A stretch of 20,408 nt of DNA from a virus. The notes under the pieces are model-generated. The model searched no databases. It was not told the DNA's origin and saw nothing but the letters and a program-made list of their open reading frames with translations. Shown here piece after piece: positions 7,052-13,661 of the stretch; position 1 is the first letter of the stretch; every line of letters starts with the position of its first letter. Location: positions 1 to 20,408 of IMG/VR virus record IMGVR_UViG_3300031162_000355; one strand, written 5' to 3'. The position numbers and the translations under genes are program-made.

Positions 7052-7459
7052 ATGACAAAATTAGTAGTTAAGAGCGTAATGAAATCTGGATCAAACATAA
7101 AGGGTGATAAGAAAGATTACGACAAGAAAAATAAATTTGGTGTGAAAGGTTCTGTTAAACCAGCAAAGGGTTCAGGACATCAAGTTAAGGTATTCCCTGA
7201 CACCCCAGAAGGTCGCAAAGAAGCAAAGGCATTTGCTGGTGGTGGAACTATTAAAAAAGTTTCTGATAAGATTGCATCTGACCCATCTAAACTTATGTCA
7301 TTGTTCTCAGAAGGAACACTTATAAACACATTGGAAAGTGGCAGTGTCGTTGATTTTAAAGAAATGGTCAAAGAACGTTTAGACACAATGGTACAAGATC
7401 GCATACAACTTAAGAGAATTGAAATAGGTTCATCAATCTTAGGTTCAACCGGAGAATAA
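7052..7459 (+). CDS. Putative prohead core protein in the gp67/gp68 position, 135 aa
   Basis: The ATG has GGAG at 7040-7043. The N-terminal 60 residues are very Lys/Gly-rich and probably disordered (GDKKDYDKKNKFGVKG). The C-terminal third is helical: FKEMVKERLDTMV, then IQLKRIEIGSSIL. That pattern of an F-x-x-x-V-K-x-x-L helix followed by K..IA..LF-like residues is common in T4-type prohead core proteins. Position supports the call: in T4 the genes before 21-22-23 are 67 and 68, both core components. It is small and charged and has no enzymatic motif. The assignment rests on position and composition more than on similarity. An alternative is a DNA-binding internal head protein. Confidence 0.55.
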   Translation: MTKLVVKSVMKSGSNIKGDKKDYDKKNKFGVKGSVKPAKGSGHQVKVFPDTPEGRKEAKAFAGGGTIKKVSDKIASDPSKLMSLFSEGTLINTLESGSVVDFKEMVKERLDTMVQDRIQLKRIEIGSSILGSTGE

Positions 7460-7462
7460 TAG

Positions 7463-7948
7463 ATGAAATCTTTCAAACAATTTTCAATGGAGAGAGCAGA
7501 GTTCTTTGAGGATGCACAACGTGTACCCGCAAAGGAACTAAAAGATGCCCCTGTTCCTAAAGATGAAATCGAGGACATGGAGCCTCGTTCAAAAGGTGAG
7601 AAAGATTTCAAAAAACTTCACACCGATAAAAAAGAAGTGATCCCACATCCAGTAGGAACAAAAGGTCAATTTGATTCGAACAATAAACAAGATGATCATC
7701 TTGCAGATGGTGCGAAGGACGAAGATGGTGAGAAAACTCCTATCAAGTCTGGAACATCAGATGTCAAAGGTGATGAAAAAGATGGTTCAAAGAAACGTGA
7801 CACATCTAAGGCAGCTGGAAAAGACAATGGTGAAAAGAAACCTGTAATGCAAGGTTCATCAGACGTACCTAAAGACCCTGAGATACAGGAAGAAATTGAT
7901 CCTGTCATGGCACATTACCTTAGTGCTATTACTAGAGACATTTCGTAA
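7463..7948 (+). CDS. Disordered internal head/core protein with capsid-targeting-like N-terminus, 161 aa
   Basis: The N-terminus MKSFKQFSME resembles the capsid-targeting sequence of T4 internal head proteins (MKTYQEFIAE). The middle is highly charged and low complexity and contains a repeat of about 18 residues: GEKTPIKSGTSDV (from residue 89) and GEKKPVMQGSSDV (from residue 123), a 34-residue period. The C-terminus EEIDPVMAHYLSAITR (143-158) matches the end of the gp22 scaffold in this window (EEVNPTMNRYVDAISK). Carrying both a targeting-like start and a scaffold-like end, it is likely part of the prohead core, processed by gp21. It overlaps the next gene by one base (TAATG). Its position corresponds to T4 gene 68, but sequence homology to gp68 is not claimed. 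Confidence 0.65.
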   Translation: MKSFKQFSMERAEFFEDAQRVPAKELKDAPVPKDEIEDMEPRSKGEKDFKKLHTDKKEVIPHPVGTKGQFDSNNKQDDHLADGAKDEDGEKTPIKSGTSDVKGDEKDGSKKRDTSKAAGKDNGEKKPVMQGSSDVPKDPEIQEEIDPVMAHYLSAITRDIS

Positions 7949-8316
7949 TGTCTCACATTTCAGTAAACCAAAAAGGTGGTTCTATTGTCTTTTCGGCAAA
8001 TAATGATGTTGGTTTGGTTTTAAATACTGATTTGGCTTCATTTCCAGGCGTGTTGGGTGCTAATACACCCGGCGAGACTGTAGTAGAAATGGCAATGACA
8101 CATTTTGTCGCATCTGGTCATTGGCATATTTTTCGTGGCACTGAGATGATTTGGGACACTGGGAATCAAAATGGGGGATTTCAGGCTGATTTTCAAACAC
8201 ACGGTTTGAGATTAGAAAAACTTGATACACATTTACAAGCAAATATCCATTGTGAACTTGTAGGTGGGAATGGATATTTATTAGTTAAATTACATAAGAG
8301 GTCTACAATAACATAA
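7948..8316 (+). CDS. Small beta-rich protein, first of a tandem paralogous pair, 122 aa
   Basis: It is clearly paralogous to the next gene. Shared landmarks in order are QKGGSIVF, LGANTPGETV (near 33-42), SGHWHIFRG (near 52-60), WDTGNQN, FQADFQTHGLRLE and LVKLHKR at the end. Alternating short strands and glycines suggest a beta-sandwich. There is no signal peptide or catalytic triad. The start codon is inside the upstream stop (TAATG, one-base overlap) and the gene ends the same way, so the proteins are probably made in fixed ratio. Being between core-protein and protease genes, a head component such as a decoration or internal protein is plausible. The family is not recognised and the function is unknown. 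Confidence 0.75.
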   Translation: MSHISVNQKGGSIVFSANNDVGLVLNTDLASFPGVLGANTPGETVVEMAMTHFVASGHWHIFRGTEMIWDTGNQNGGFQADFQTHGLRLEKLDTHLQANIHCELVGGNGYLLVKLHKRSTIT

Positions 8317-8681
8317 TGCCAATAACAATAAAACAAAAAGGTAGTGGGATTGTCACAATCAATACCTCAAACGCATCAGAAGGACTTCTCTTAAATTTTG
8401 CTGGAGGTGACATTGAAGGTGCTAATACATCTGGTGAATCAGTATCAGTAATGTCTGTATCGGAAGTTATGTTCACTGGTCACTGGCATATATTAAGAGG
8501 TGCTAACGTTATATTTGATACTGGTAATGCCAATTCGGTTGGACATTTTGACTTTCAGGCATCAAATATGAGACTAGAAGCAGACAATGCACAACTAACA
8601 TCTAATGTTACTGCATCATTTCAAGGTGGTGGTGATGGAACGATGATACTTAAAATGCACAAACAATCAGGACAACTATAA
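8316..8681 (+). CDS. Small beta-rich protein, second of a tandem paralogous pair, 121 aa
   Basis: It aligns end to end with the preceding protein by eye: IKQKGSGIVTIN, EGANTSGESV, TGHWHILRG, FDTGNANS, FDFQASNMRLE and a LKMHKQS ending. I estimate roughly a third of positions are identical, consistent with an old tandem duplication. The GHWHI[FL]RG core is the best conserved stretch, and its two His and Trp could bind a ligand or metal or simply be structural. It is joined to both neighbours by TAATG one-base overlaps. It is most likely a late virion protein; the role is unknown. The two copies may form a hetero-oligomer. Confidence 0.75.
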   Translation: MPITIKQKGSGIVTINTSNASEGLLLNFAGGDIEGANTSGESVSVMSVSEVMFTGHWHILRGANVIFDTGNANSVGHFDFQASNMRLEADNAQLTSNVTASFQGGGDGTMILKMHKQSGQL

Positions 8682-9331
8682 TGTTACTTATCACAGAATC
8701 AGCAGAATCAGTTACATATCTAGCAGAAGAAAAAGACGGTAAAAAGAATTACTTTGTTGAAGGTATCTTCATGCAGGGTGACATCAAACACCGCAACGGT
8801 CGTCTATACCCTGTTTCTGTGCTTGAAAATGAAGTTAATAAATATATAAAAGAAAAGGTAGATACTAAAAGAGCATACGGAGAACTTGGACACCCACAGG
8901 GGCCAACCATCAATCTTCCTCTTGCATCACACGTATTCACAGAGATCAAAAAAGACGGTGCGAACTTTGTAGGTCGTGCAAAAATTTTAGATACTAATAA
9001 TGGTAAGGTTGTGAAAAATCTTATTGATGAAGGACTTTCGTTTGGTATGAGTTCACGTGGTATGGGTTCACTTGAATTAAAGAACGGAGTTAATGAAGTA
9101 CAGAGTGATTTTAAACTAGCAACTGCTGGTGATATTGTCTCTGACCCATCAGCACCAGACGCATTTGTTAATGGCATAATGGAAGGTGTGGAGTTCTGGT
9201 TTAATGAGGAAAATGGATTATGGGAACGTGCAGCAATGGAAGCAAGACAAGAAGTTCGATCACTCAAATCCGGACAAATTACAGAAGAAAATCTATTAAA
9301 CATATTCAATAGATTTTGTTCAAAACTTTAA
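8681..9331 (+). CDS. 21: Prohead maturation protease gp21
   Basis: T4 gp21-type serine protease (peptidase family S77, same fold as the HK97 and herpesvirus assembly proteases). It sits inside the prohead, cleaves scaffold and capsid proteins after Glu in an [LI]xE context, and destroys the core before DNA packaging. Visible motifs are NGRLYP (39-44), GELGHPQG with the catalytic His at 71, and FGMSSRG (121-127) with the nucleophile at Ser124 or Ser125. An Asp around 151-155 (GDIVSDPSAP) fits the conserved region after it. The length of 216 aa is close to T4 gp21 (212 aa). The start is ATG overlapping the previous stop by one base. It lies immediately before gp22 and gp23, as in T4. Confidence 0.92.
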   Translation: MLLITESAESVTYLAEEKDGKKNYFVEGIFMQGDIKHRNGRLYPVSVLENEVNKYIKEKVDTKRAYGELGHPQGPTINLPLASHVFTEIKKDGANFVGRAKILDTNNGKVVKNLIDEGLSFGMSSRGMGSLELKNGVNEVQSDFKLATAGDIVSDPSAPDAFVNGIMEGVEFWFNEENGLWERAAMEARQEVRSLKSGQITEENLLNIFNRFCSKL

Positions 9332-9342: not shown

Positions 9343-9378
9343 TACGAAAGAAACAAAATTCTCTAGGAGTTAATGCAA

Positions 9379-10644
9379 ATGTTAATAAATGAAACCTACT
9401 ATGTCGTTGAAGAAGATGGAACAATTATGTTCATCGAGGCAGAAGAAGTAAAGGACGCAAAAGAAAAAGGTCTTAAAGTGATGAAGGCTAAGTCTGACGA
9501 AGATGATGAAGAAGAAGAAGATGATGAAGAAATGTCAGCAGAAGAAGTTGAAGAACTTGAAGCAGAACTTATTGAGTTCAAAGCAGACGGTGAAAACTCA
9601 TCTACAGCAGACCCAGTTGGTGGTCAAACTCCAACTCGTAGAGCAGATAAAAGAAACCCAGAAGCAAAACCTATGAAGCCAGGTTCAGGTATTGATTATG
9701 CTAACGCATCAAAATCATCAATGCTATCAGGTATGGTTAAATCACTTAAATCTATGGACAATAATGAATTATCATCATTGTACAAAAAGATTGTATCTAT
9801 GTCTAAACAGGGTCTTGAAATTCAAAAAGAAGAAACTGATGAAGATGAAGAAGATGTGAAAGCAAAGGATATGAAGAAGAAAGTATCTAAAGATGATGTT
9901 GATGTCGAAGAAGATATTAAAGCAATCTTTAAAGGTTCTGATCTCTCTGAAGAATTCCAATCAAAGGCAACTGAGATTTTCGAAGCAGCAGTCGTTTCTA
10001 AAGTAAATGACATTCTTGAGTCAGTATATATTGATCAAGAAGCACAGTTCGAAATCGCAAAAGTACAAATGGAAGAAACTCTTGACGAGCAATTGAATGA
10101 GTATCTTGAATACGTTGTAACTAACTGGATGGGAGAAAACACCCTTGCAGTAGAAAAAGGTATTCGTGCTGAGATTGCAGAAAATGTTCTTGAAGGTCTT
10201 AAATCTTTATTTGATGAAAACTACATCGAAGTTCCAGAAGATAAGATTGACATCATTGAAGAACTTGTTGCTAAGAACGAAGAACTTGAAGAAGAATTAA
10301 ATCAAGCAACCGCTGCAGCAGCAGGGCACTTTAACAAAGTAAAAGAATTTGAAACCGAGATCGCATTCGTAGAAGCAGCAGATGGTCTATCTGATACTGA
10401 GGAAGCAAAATTGAAGTCACTTGCAGAAAGCATTGATTTTGATAGTGTTGAACAGTACAAAGAGAAACTTTCAAGTCTGAGAGAATCATATTTCGGTGAA
10501 GATGATAATGGAGTGGAGTTAGAAATTCTTGATGAGTCTGATTCAGGTGTCGCACTTGATGAAGAATCAGCAGTAATCATAGAAGAAGAAGTGAACCCAA
10601 CAATGAATCGTTATGTCGATGCCATTTCGAAAACACTTGGATAA
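9379..10644 (+). CDS. 22: Prohead core scaffolding protein gp22
   Basis: Main scaffold of the T4-type prohead core, around which gp23 polymerises; it is later degraded by gp21. The protein (421 aa from this start) is strongly acidic, with an almost pure Asp/Glu run near residues 39-54, long predicted coiled-coil helices (for example IDIIEELVAKNEELEEELN), and FEAAVVSKVNDIL in the middle. Its C-terminus NPTMNRYVDAIS is of the type thought to contact the shell. Two start codons are possible: ATG 9373 lies only 3 bases after AGGAG (9365-9369), whereas ATG 9379 lies 9 bases after it and is preferred. It is longer than T4 gp22 (269 aa), as often in marine relatives. The same C-terminal motif occurs in the 161-aa protein at 7463-7948. 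Confidence 0.88.
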   Translation: MLINETYYVVEEDGTIMFIEAEEVKDAKEKGLKVMKAKSDEDDEEEEDDEEMSAEEVEELEAELIEFKADGENSSTADPVGGQTPTRRADKRNPEAKPMKPGSGIDYANASKSSMLSGMVKSLKSMDNNELSSLYKKIVSMSKQGLEIQKEETDEDEEDVKAKDMKKKVSKDDVDVEEDIKAIFKGSDLSEEFQSKATEIFEAAVVSKVNDILESVYIDQEAQFEIAKVQMEETLDEQLNEYLEYVVTNWMGENTLAVEKGIRAEIAENVLEGLKSLFDENYIEVPEDKIDIIEELVAKNEELEEELNQATAAAAGHFNKVKEFETEIAFVEAADGLSDTEEAKLKSLAESIDFDSVEQYKEKLSSLRESYFGEDDNGVELEILDESDSGVALDEESAVIIEEEVNPTMNRYVDAISKTLG

Positions 10645-10727: not shown

Positions 10728-12137
10728 ATGATCCTTTCAGAAACAACATTAAAGAAGTGGCAACCAGTTCTTGATCACAGGGAACTTCCTGAGATCAAAG
10801 AATCAGCAAAACGAAAAGTTGTTGCAACACTTTTAGAAAACACAGAAGAAGCTGCTCGTAACGGCAATCTTGGTGGTTACCGTATGCCTTCACTTCTTGG
10901 TGAAATGTCACACGCAGAGTTAGCAGAAGCAGCACCAACAAACGCAATGGGTGCATCTTCTTCTACAGCAGGTGATGGTGCTATCGACATTTTCGACCCA
11001 GTACTTATTTCACTTGTTAGACGTTCAATGCCTAACCTTATTGCATACGATGTATGTGGTGTACAACCAATGACAGGCCCAACAGGTCTTATCTTTGCAT
11101 TACGCCCACGTTACAACAGTCAAACAGGTAAGGAAGCGTTCTTCAATGAAGCAAACGTAACTCACTCAGCAATTGGTTCAACAACTGCTAACACAGCAAA
11201 CTTCCATGGTGTTGTTAATGGTGCTGCTGGTACAACAGTTGGTACAGACCAATTTGACCCTACTGCTCGTGCATCTGGTACTGGTTATACAGTTCACCAA
11301 GGTATGTCTACAGCAGTTGCAGAAGCACTTGGTGATTCATCAGGTAATGCTTTCGCAGAAATGGGTTTCAGTGTTGAAAAAGTATCTGTAACAGCAGTTT
11401 CACGTGCTCTTAAAGCAGAGTACACAATGGAACTTGCACAAGACCTTAAAGCAATTCACGGTCTTTCAGCAGAAACAGAACTTGCTAACATTTTGTCAGC
11501 AGAAGTTCTTGCAGAAATCAACAGAGAAATTGTTCGTACAATTAACTATACCGCAACAGTTGGTGCACAAGATAACGTTGAAGCCGCTGGTACGTTTAAC
11601 CTTGACACAGACGCAAACGGTCGTTGGTCAGTAGAACGTTTCAAAGGTCTTATCTTCCAACTTGAAAGAGAGTCAAATGCGATTGCGAAATCAACACGTA
11701 GAGGTAAGGGTAACGTTATGATTTGTGGTTCTGATGTAGCGTCAGCACTTCAAATGGCAGGTGTATTAGATTATACTCCAGCACTTAACAACAGCTTACA
11801 AGTTGATGACACTGGTAACACTTTTGCAGGTGTGATGAATGGTCGTATCAAAGTATACATAGACCCATACTTCTCATCTTCAACAGGTTTGCAATATGCA
11901 ACTATGGGTTATAAAGGTAATGCCTCATCTTTTGATGCTGGTCTTTTCTACTGCCCTTACGTTCCATTACAAATGGTACGTGCGGTTGGTGAAGATACTT
12001 TCCAACCAAAGATTGGTTTCAAGACTCGTTACGGTGTAGTGGCAAACCCATTCGCAACCGCAGCAGCAGATGGAACTATCTCATATGCAAACGCAAACAT
12101 ATATTATCGCCTTATAGCTATCTCGAATTTAATGTAA
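10728..12137 (+). CDS. 23: Major capsid protein gp23
   Basis: The 469-aa protein matches T4-type gp23 (HK97 fold; T4 gp23 is 521 aa). Diagnostic stretches are IFDPVLISLVRRSMPNLIAYD (residues about 87-107), CGVQPMTGPTGLIFALRPRY near 109-128, and a C-terminal region with KIGFKTRYGVVANPF. The precursor propeptide is visible: HAELAE/AAPTN places the gp21 cleavage after Glu67 in an LAE context, equivalent to the cleavage after Glu65 in T4. AGGAG lies ten bases before the ATG. It has its own late promoter upstream and a strong terminator downstream, fitting the most highly expressed virion gene. No adjacent gp24 vertex paralogue is seen. Confidence 0.96.
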   Translation: MILSETTLKKWQPVLDHRELPEIKESAKRKVVATLLENTEEAARNGNLGGYRMPSLLGEMSHAELAEAAPTNAMGASSSTAGDGAIDIFDPVLISLVRRSMPNLIAYDVCGVQPMTGPTGLIFALRPRYNSQTGKEAFFNEANVTHSAIGSTTANTANFHGVVNGAAGTTVGTDQFDPTARASGTGYTVHQGMSTAVAEALGDSSGNAFAEMGFSVEKVSVTAVSRALKAEYTMELAQDLKAIHGLSAETELANILSAEVLAEINREIVRTINYTATVGAQDNVEAAGTFNLDTDANGRWSVERFKGLIFQLERESNAIAKSTRRGKGNVMICGSDVASALQMAGVLDYTPALNNSLQVDDTGNTFAGVMNGRIKVYIDPYFSSSTGLQYATMGYKGNASSFDAGLFYCPYVPLQMVRAVGEDTFQPKIGFKTRYGVVANPFATAAADGTISYANANIYYRLIAISNLM

Positions 12138-12162: not shown

Positions 12163-12190
12163 AAAACCCCTCCTCGTGAGGGGTTTTTTT
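12163..12190 (+). terminator. Strong intrinsic terminator after gp23
   Basis: AAAACCCCTC (12163-12172), loop CTCGT, then GAGGGG (12178-12183) followed by seven T. The GC stem is 6 bp and extends through A-T pairs. This is a textbook rho-independent terminator, 25 bases after the gp23 stop. Confidence 0.92.
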
Positions 12191-12195
12191 ATGCT

Positions 12196-12203
12196 TATAA
12201 ATA
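12196..12203 (+). promoter_or_regulatory. T4-type late promoter (TATAAATA) abutting a start codon
   Basis: Perfect octamer six bases after the gp23 terminator. In T4 the octamer spans about -13 to -6, which puts the start point at about 12209, the A of the next ATG. The transcript would therefore be leaderless. Confidence 0.82.
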
Positions 12204-12208
12204 GTAGT

Positions 12209-12225
12209 ATGAAAACGTTTAAAGA
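12209..12225 (+). repeat. 17-bp direct repeat encoding the targeting N-terminus, copy 1
   Basis: The first 17 bases of this gene (ATGAAAACGTTTAAAGA) are identical to the first 17 of the next gene at 12481-12497. The identity stops soon after the targeting segment. Confidence 0.85.
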
Positions 12226-12484
12226 GTTTATGTCGGAGAGCAATGGTTTTACTGCTATAAAGAAAGGTCAAAATAAAGCAGGGAAATGGTTTGCTCTTGC
12301 CAAAGAAGGTAATATATATACGGTGTATGCCCGTGGTGGTAATTATGATGGTAGTGTTCCCGGCGGCATTAGATATGCTTGGAGAACTGCGAATTATGAT
12401 CGCAAGAATCCATCTGGACATTATGATAACCTAGAGGATGCAACTAAGTTTTACGAAAAGGTACTTAAAGGTAAAAGAAAATGA
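12209..12484 (+). CDS. Small protein with capsid-targeting-like N-terminus, 91 aa
   Basis: The start is taken at ATG 12209 because the product then begins MKTFKEFMSE, matching the T4 internal-protein targeting sequence (MKTYQEFIAE). Cleavage by gp21 after Glu10 is plausible. In-frame ATGs at 12176 (inside the terminator) and 12191 would add 11 or 6 residues. The mature part is basic, with Trp, Tyr and Gly-rich strands (WFALAKEGNIYTVYARGG) and a C-terminal helix (LEDATKFYEKVLKG). No catalytic motif is recognised. It is the first gene of a three-gene run joined by ATGA and TAATG overlaps. It is likely packaged in the head and perhaps injected; the target is unknown. Confidence 0.72.
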   Translation: MKTFKEFMSESNGFTAIKKGQNKAGKWFALAKEGNIYTVYARGGNYDGSVPGGIRYAWRTANYDRKNPSGHYDNLEDATKFYEKVLKGKRK

Positions 12485-12497
12485 AAACGTTTAAAGA
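12481..12497 (+). repeat. 17-bp direct repeat encoding the targeting N-terminus, copy 2
   Basis: Identical to 12209-12225. Because both copies begin at the ATG, the repeat may be a duplicated targeting cassette or conserved by coding constraint. Confidence 0.85.
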
Positions 12498-13194
12498 ATA
12501 TATAACAGAAGCCGGTGGTGAAGGTGCAGGTAAAATGGAACTTGTTTCTACTCCATACCCAAAGGCAGTTAAACACGCAGAAAAACTTTTCACGGATAGT
12601 GGTAAATCATTCGAAAAAGAAATCCCGAATTTTGATAAGAACTATAAGATTGCACAGAAGCAAGCAAACCTTGGTTACACACAAAGAAAAGATATGCCTG
12701 TCATTGACACATCAGATGTCAAGAAGTTACAAGCAAAACTTAAGTCAGGTTTTATTGATGTTAATGCACCCCACGCACCAGTAACCAGTAATGCAAATCC
12801 TTTTCCAGAAGGACTATCAGGTGAAGATGCTTTAAAGTTCTTAAAGGCAGGGTTAGATGATGGTAGTAAAACAGATGATAAGGTTAAGGTGTTATTAAAG
12901 AAAGTACAGGTATCAAAATTAAAACCAATACAGAAACAAATATATTTTGACAAGTCTATTGGTAGTACAGCAGAGTTTGGTGCAGATGTTACTAAAGGCT
13001 TCTTGGAAAGTAAATCTATTTTTATTGCATCATCTGATTTATATATCATAGATGGACATCATAGATACCTTTCTGGTATGTTGGTTGATCCGAAAATGAA
13101 AGTTAAGGTACTTGTTATTGATTTACCAATCAAAGATTTATTGCCAATGACTTTGGCATATGGTGATGCTATAGGTAATAAAAGAAACGCATAA
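12481..13194 (+). CDS. Capsid-targeted ParB/sulfiredoxin-like protein, 237 aa
   Basis: The N-terminus MKTFKEYITE/A fits both the T4 capsid-targeting sequence and the gp21 cleavage rule (I-x-E). The C-terminal half resembles the ParB/sulfiredoxin superfamily: VQVSKLKPIQKQI (143-154), a strand FIASSDLYIIDGHHRYLSGM with the hallmark DGHHRY at 191-196, then VKVLVIDLPIKDLL (208-221). Members bind or hydrolyse nucleotides, or act as nucleases. Which activity applies here is unknown. Residues 11-140 are a Lys-rich region with no recognised domain. The start overlaps the upstream stop (ATGA) and the end overlaps the next start (TAATG). The combination suggests an enzyme carried in the head and delivered with phage DNA, which is inference. 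Confidence 0.72.
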   Translation: MKTFKEYITEAGGEGAGKMELVSTPYPKAVKHAEKLFTDSGKSFEKEIPNFDKNYKIAQKQANLGYTQRKDMPVIDTSDVKKLQAKLKSGFIDVNAPHAPVTSNANPFPEGLSGEDALKFLKAGLDDGSKTDDKVKVLLKKVQVSKLKPIQKQIYFDKSIGSTAEFGADVTKGFLESKSIFIASSDLYIIDGHHRYLSGMLVDPKMKVKVLVIDLPIKDLLPMTLAYGDAIGNKRNA

Positions 13195-13661
13195 TGAAGT
13201 CGTATAAAGAATTTCACGAAGCAGCAACAAATAATAAACTTACTTGGAAGAAAGTACAAGATGGGTTTGCTACACGTATGGGTGCTAAAAGATATAAATA
13301 TGTTACCACAGATGGTAGATATGAAATAACATCTGGTGGGAATACATTTGATCGTAAACTAAGTGGGAAACAAAAAGATACTCTTTGGTGGCATATATCT
13401 GATCTATCTAAACCAGAACATACGACAAAAAGATATTGGGAACACCCGCATAAAACAATAGAAAAGGCAAAGGCAGCAGTACAGAAATCACATACAAACG
13501 AACTTGATCCGTTGGGTGAATTAGTTAAAGAGTATAGTGCTAAACCTAAAGCAAAACTACAAGATATGTATGATAGGTATCAAGAACTTGATTTGAAGAA
13601 ATTATCAGACTTTCAATTGTTACATTATAAAGCAATCAAGAAAGTATTAAAGATTAAATAA
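13194..13661 (+). CDS. Protein with capsid-targeting-like N-terminus, 155 aa
   Basis: It begins MKSYKEFHEA, a third version of the capsid-targeting pattern; a gp21 cut after Glu9 (FHE/A) would be less canonical than in the preceding gene. The body is basic, with WKKVQDGFATRMGAKRYKYV, TDGRYEITSGG, LWWHIS and a region YWEHPHKTIEKAKAAV. Strands followed by an H....[ED]KA helix loosely recall the layout of the 91-aa protein, so both may share a small domain. The C-terminal 50 residues are Leu/Lys-rich helices. I recognise no family. It is the last gene of the late operon starting at 12196. Its ATG shares a base with the upstream TAA. Likely an internal head protein. Confidence 0.68.
   Translation: MKSYKEFHEAATNNKLTWKKVQDGFATRMGAKRYKYVTTDGRYEITSGGNTFDRKLSGKQKDTLWWHISDLSKPEHTTKRYWEHPHKTIEKAKAAVQKSHTNELDPLGELVKEYSAKPKAKLQDMYDRYQELDLKKLSDFQLLHYKAIKKVLKIK

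Follow-up and report, generated by a model that had tools for sequence, protein, structure and literature searches.

The window analysed here, 20,408 bases long, takes up an entire IMG/VR record; it comes from a T4-like phage, a marine relative of T4. It carries the gp67-like, gp21, gp22 and gp23 genes listed in Table 1, together with a gp19-type tail tube gene, so that both the gp21 protease and the gp22 core expected alongside T4-type cargo are encoded by the phage itself. The L-x-E propeptide site of gp23 is shared with T4 and a further six phages. Between the tagged gene at 7463 and gp21, at 7948-8681, there is a tandem pair of similar small genes, and the first of them has homologues in many gp23-related loci.

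Directly after gp23 we found three genes, ORF1, ORF2 and ORF3, in which each start overlaps the preceding stop (ATGA, TAATG), an arrangement of tight coupling. As the initial annotation had described, they have near-identical starts and then unlike bodies. Once the tag was removed, no meaningful similarity was left among their products and that of a further tagged gene at 7463 (best BLASTP E-value 0.03). The three mature proteins are all strongly basic, with pI values from 9.3 to 9.9, like the basic internal proteins of T4. An intrinsic terminator sets the operon apart from gp23. The operon had also been credited with its own late promoter, and this was borne out in part: a T4-type match, TATAAATA, does follow the gp23 terminator, but it lies only 5 nt from the ATG, and ATAAATA is not over-represented in the window (10 found versus 8.9 expected). 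Seven of these ten sites lie at most about 60 nt upstream of a gene on the + strand. With such a short distance and the spacing known from T4, transcription would begin close to the ATG itself and the ORF1 transcript would be leaderless. A similar spacing between promoter and ATG was found in L178, L182, L196 and L206, from a large marine family.

Table 1. Positions of the head genes, the operon behind gp23 and their sequence features in the window
Feature	Position	Strand	Remarks
gp67-like prohead protein	7052..7459	+	PHROG match, weak, E 0.002
Tagged protein, start MKSFKQFSMER	7463..7948	+	161 aa, acidic, pI 5.2, between gp67 and gp21
gp21 prohead protease	8681..9331	+	Peptidase_S77, E 7.6e-38
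gp22 scaffold	9373..10644	+	T4_CASP, E 6.6e-58
gp23 major capsid protein	10728..12137	+	L-x-E propeptide site
Intrinsic terminator 3' of gp23	12163..12187	+	-14.4 kcal/mol, z -3.8
T4-type late promoter match TATAAATA	12196..12203	+	5 nt ahead of ORF1 ATG
ORF1	12209..12484	+	91 aa, start MKTFKEFMSES, mature pI 9.9, cargo candidate
ORF1 tag MKTFKEFMSE	12209..12238	+	residues 1-7 identical to T4 IPI
ORF2	12481..13194	+	237 aa, start MKTFKEYITEA, mature pI 9.3, cargo candidate
ORF2 tag MKTFKEYITE	12481..12510	+	12/20 N-terminal residues identical to T4 IPII
Putative ParB/sulfiredoxin-type domain of ORF2	12886..13164	+	residues 136-228, DGHHR motif, confidently modelled
ORF3	13194..13661	+	155 aa, start MKSYKEFHEAA, mature pI 9.8, cargo candidate
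ORF3 tag MKSYKEFHE	13194..13220	+	aromatic positions kept

The N-terminal tag and its predicted cleavage site

T4 IPI starts MKTFKEFTST, while IPII and IPIII start MKTYQEFIAE. ORF1 resembles IPI, and ORF2 resembles IPII, over no more than the first 20 residues or so. According to T4 genetics, ten residues suffice for packaging, and in IPIII positions 4 and 7 matter most in targeting and positions 8 and 10 in processing (PMC9026906). In all four tags of the window, positions 4 and 7 are aromatic. T4 Alt had been listed as sharing the tag, but it begins MELITELFDE and has to be removed from the comparison.

The pattern MK[TS][FY]K[EQ][FY] starts four of the 23 genes of the window and none of 1554 ORFs taken from 80 loci with a related gp23, which excludes chance (probability of at least four in 23, about 1.5e-9). 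A search with the DNA form of the tag in 21 records gave 24 matches, and the reversed-pattern control gave none; the only matches in T4 are ipII, ipIII and gene 61.1. Since gene 61.1 (L289:667-831) starts MKTFKEFIKED, it may be an unrecognised T4 internal protein. The isolates with the nearest gp23, Mosig, Melnitz, DLP_6 and HTVC008M, gave no match to MKx[FY]x[EQ][FY], and hence the tag is not universal among gp23 relatives. Within the open-access papers searched, the tag is described for T4-type coliphages only.

Regarding the number of tagged genes, all three originally reported are confirmed, but the list was incomplete, as the gene at 7463-7948 had been overlooked. Some 24 gp23-related loci encode homologues of its product ahead of gp21, and most of these homologues start MK[KTR]FK..[LF]..E or similar. 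By its position and acidity it is likely a prohead-core protein, and its tag links the motif to the core.

The gp21 protease cleaves after L/I-x-E (PMC9026906), and that of the window is presumed to be the enzyme that removes the tags. A gp21-type site had been proposed in all three, yet the strict form is present in ORF2 only (ITE before A), ORF1 having MSE before S and ORF3 FHE before A. T4 IPI is also without L/I-x-E at position 10; the missing site in ORF1 and ORF3 is therefore not disqualifying, although it makes the claim of cleavage weaker. Among the homologues of ORF2, L/I-x-E stands at the junction of tag and body in 18 of 24 distinct sequences, compared with 3.9% of control windows, a contrast whose p-value is overstated because the homologues are related and not independent. 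Judging by this motif, the ORF2 tag is likely cut by gp21 after ITE. ORF1 and ORF3 are probably cut after the nearby Glu, less surely than ORF2.

Protein bodies and exchange of tags

ORF1 and ORF3 have orphan bodies, with no homologues found when these were sought in viral contigs. The single-sequence model of ORF1 is a small beta-alpha structure of low confidence (pLDDT 62), and the fold search with this weak model returned nothing usable. We rejected the weak profile matches of ORF1 to QslA and of ORF3 to ATP-synt_E, WsfD and PDC-S13, which were under the cut-offs or short.

ORF2 is a different case. The initial annotation recognised none of the three bodies, and indeed no T4 internal protein is among them, but the C-terminus of ORF2 holds a predicted ParB/sulfiredoxin-type domain. 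The modelled domain gave ParB/sulfiredoxin matches in BFVD, with E-values down to 7e-7, and its top rows against the PDB were nearly all ParB/Srx (best E 0.04, best Z 6.2). With moderate, not decisive, confidence we assign residues 136-228 to a predicted ParB/sulfiredoxin fold. The Pfam model ParBc_2 was matched by 5 of 21 homologues, with a best E-value of 0.0035, and ORF2 itself scored 12.5 bits, under the cut-off of 23.6. It has been proposed that ParB-type domains act as effectors that are packaged and injected, and P1 DdrB has been reported in the head (PMC5512222). Like P1 DdrB and the DdrB-like ParB domains of polyvalent proteins, ORF2 would be a phage protein with a ParB/sulfiredoxin fold. 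Polyvalent proteins are long and contain an autopeptidase (PMC5512222), whereas ORF2 is shorter and bears a T4-type tag; no DdrB-type model is among the Pfam matches of ORF2 and its homologues, an absence that does not decide against kinship with DdrB.

The homologues of ORF2 also bear on the tag. We identified 29 of full length in uncultured viral contigs, with a patchy distribution. Their bodies align well, but their first dozen residues do not; the homologues tend to bear a tag, such as MKLTESKLRKIIKEEIQKLNE, MRLQ.YINE or MNFREYL, that also stands on unrelated genes in the contig they come from (p=1.5e-4, permutation of homologues among 17 contigs). A few contigs, such as those of L086 and L099, gave no tag match at the threshold used. 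A gp21-type protease was found in ten of the contigs with ORF2 homologues, and a crude test for closeness of the homologues to gp21 or gp23 was not significant (0.55). Besides, the gp21-type protease match in L313 (7718-8155) and the contig of L096 contains two in-frame TGA codons, which suggests TGA readthrough or recoding in that lineage.

Virion evidence and readings of the operon

For the T4-like cyanophage S-CREM2, the published virion proteome covers 52 of 219 ORFs (PMC10665884). Using a rule drawn from T4 genetics, four out of four tagged ORFs were detected in the virion by mass spectrometry (p=0.003), and using a relaxed rule five out of seven (p=0.009), where both rules were our own choice, the first made after the table of detected proteins had been seen and before the N-termini were extracted, and the relaxed one later. 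The four proteins are a SAM hydrolase, a kinase, a cytidylyltransferase and a small protein. In S-CREM2, S-SCSM1 and S-SZBM1, the tag is found on five of the six virion enzymes that are neither structural nor lytic, including the NMNAT of S-SCSM1 and the cytidylyltransferase of S-SZBM1. When one uniform strict DNA motif was applied to the three cyanophages, 3 of 6 tagged proteins were among those detected (p=0.07); S-SZBM1 ORF191 and ORF192 and S-SCSM1 ORF30 are tagged and absent from the detected virion proteins. The available portions of the cyanophage proteome papers contain no mention of the tag or of a T4 targeting sequence. Apart from the cyanophages, one family with MKTFKE[FY] starts has a match to a PHROG that bears the label virion structural protein; for its PA5oct relative, detection by mass spectrometry is on record. 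For the core proposal, a T4-type capsid-targeting tag on unrelated proteins, comparison and proteomics of relatives give good support.

Tag-like segments were also seen elsewhere in two virion-detected proteins. S-SCSM1 ORF93 (L295:5627-5836), of 69 residues, has RTFKEFLEYIE at its C-terminus and not at its N-terminus. S-CREM2 ORF12 (L283:6727-9336), annotated as Cas9, has LRFASFMAEA within its first 27 residues, and S-CRM01 g128 has a start similar to that of ORF12.

We consider it very likely that ORF1-3 form a late, separately terminated cargo module of the T4 internal-protein type. The first ten or so residues would fold into a short helix carrying aromatics at positions 4 and 7. As a capsid-targeting sequence, this segment would dock the three proteins on a prohead core of the gp22/gp67 type, by the same route as the tagged core-position protein encoded at 7463. 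The gp21 protease encoded nearby would then remove the tag, and the basic mature proteins would stay by the DNA in the head and accompany it into the next host cell. In this process ORF2 would be an effector with a nucleotide-binding or nuclease fold of the ParB/sulfiredoxin type, and ORF1 and ORF3 would be unrelated, lineage-specific effectors. We strongly infer that the three proteins are packaged into heads; we also infer their ejection into the host and a role there as effectors. An anti-restriction role is plausible from the likeness to T4 IPI.

One could argue that the tag serves structural docking on the prohead core and nothing else, ORF1-3 being extra core or head-size proteins like gp67 and gp68 with no role in the next host. 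The operon does lie directly after gp23, the conserved core-position protein bears the same tag, and T4 IPIII affects head assembly (PMC9026906). However, ORF1 and ORF3 are without relatives found and ORF2 is patchy, unlike assembly genes; the three bodies are basic, versus the acidic core-position protein; and there are enzymes among the tagged virion proteins of S-CREM2. We hence regard this reading as unlikely.

The chances are slimmer still that the tag leads to another late-phase site, for instance in tail, neck or membrane assembly, with the cyanophage proteins bound to the surface or present as contaminants. The tag matches the experimentally defined T4 head signal, a gp21-type motif stands at the junction and a gene of the gp67-gp21 core block is tagged, which outweigh the annotation of the tagged PA5oct homologue only as a structural protein and the statement of the S-CREM2 authors that such enzymes could be contaminants of the CsCl preparation. 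Just as improbable is that the shared starts arose by gene conversion or duplication of gene starts, or by selection for leaderless translation initiation, and are no address: the position of the promoter match before ORF1, its counterpart in the large marine family and the almost identical DNA of ORF1 and ORF2 over the first 21 nt would fit, but ORF2 and ORF3 are internal to the operon and need no leaderless start, conservation is at the protein level (aromatics 4 and 7, L/I-x-E) across tags unrelated in sequence, and the tag correlates with virion presence in S-CREM2.

Read as a cargo module, the operon shares with T4 IPI-IPIII the N-terminal MKT[FY].E[FY], aromatics at positions 4 and 7, unrelated basic bodies, and a phage that encodes gp21, gp22 and gp23. 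It differs in that no T4 internal protein is related to the bodies, a core-position protein bears the tag as well and the strict L/I-x-E is in ORF2 only; in addition, the T4 genes are scattered, while those of the window form an operon directly behind gp23. The virion enzymes of T4-like cyanophages have the same form of tag and were found in virions by mass spectrometry, but their enzyme bodies are other ones. Ejection proteins of the SPN3US/phiKZ type likewise have removable N-terminal propeptides on head-packaged proteins, several of them of more than 100 residues (PMC5694885), compared with about 10 for the tags of the window. The module is new in its cargo and setting, and the surprising part is the existence of lineage dialects.

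Putative lineage-specific tags in other viral contigs

In a contig of 113.6 kb (L102/L123-L128), 20 genes between 18.6 and 38.9 kb, around gp23, start MKLTESKLRKIIKEEIQKLNE, and none of the 190 pairs of their bodies is related; MKLTESKLRKIIKEEIQKLNE is a second, longer type of tag. Another contig of 55.8 kb (L133-L135), where neither a gp21 nor a gp23 match was found, has about 16 genes that start MRLQ.YINE, one of them for a HAD-like protein. MKTFKE[FY] starts sampled in viral contigs stand before many bodies with no kinship to each other, some of them encoded in runs of successive tagged genes.

On balance, we lean towards a general, lineage-specific address code for cargo in tailed phages with T4-type heads, in which cargo genes that move between lineages are refitted with the local dialect, such as MKTFKEY, MRLQKYINE, MNFREYL or MKLTESKLRKIIKEEIQKLNE, each on up to 20 unrelated proteins. 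If this is true, the sequences of uncultured phages could directly reveal their cargo repertoire, and targeting becomes testable across dialects. A short motif would predict which proteins a phage brings into the cell, so that head-packaged effectors, which are candidates for counter-defence and host takeover, could be listed from metagenomes without culturing the phage. It would also give a sequence-level reason for the recurrent enzymes in cyanophage virions, where the authors could not exclude contamination.

Two further gene arrays were observed in these contigs. At L180:1041-6794, seven consecutive genes, mostly coupled and including a HAD-like phosphatase, start MKTFK[QE]Y or MTKKFKEYL. 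Finally, between 94 and 111 kb of the L123-L128 contig, about 30 short genes with MKYYII-type starts constitute a separate repeated gene family.
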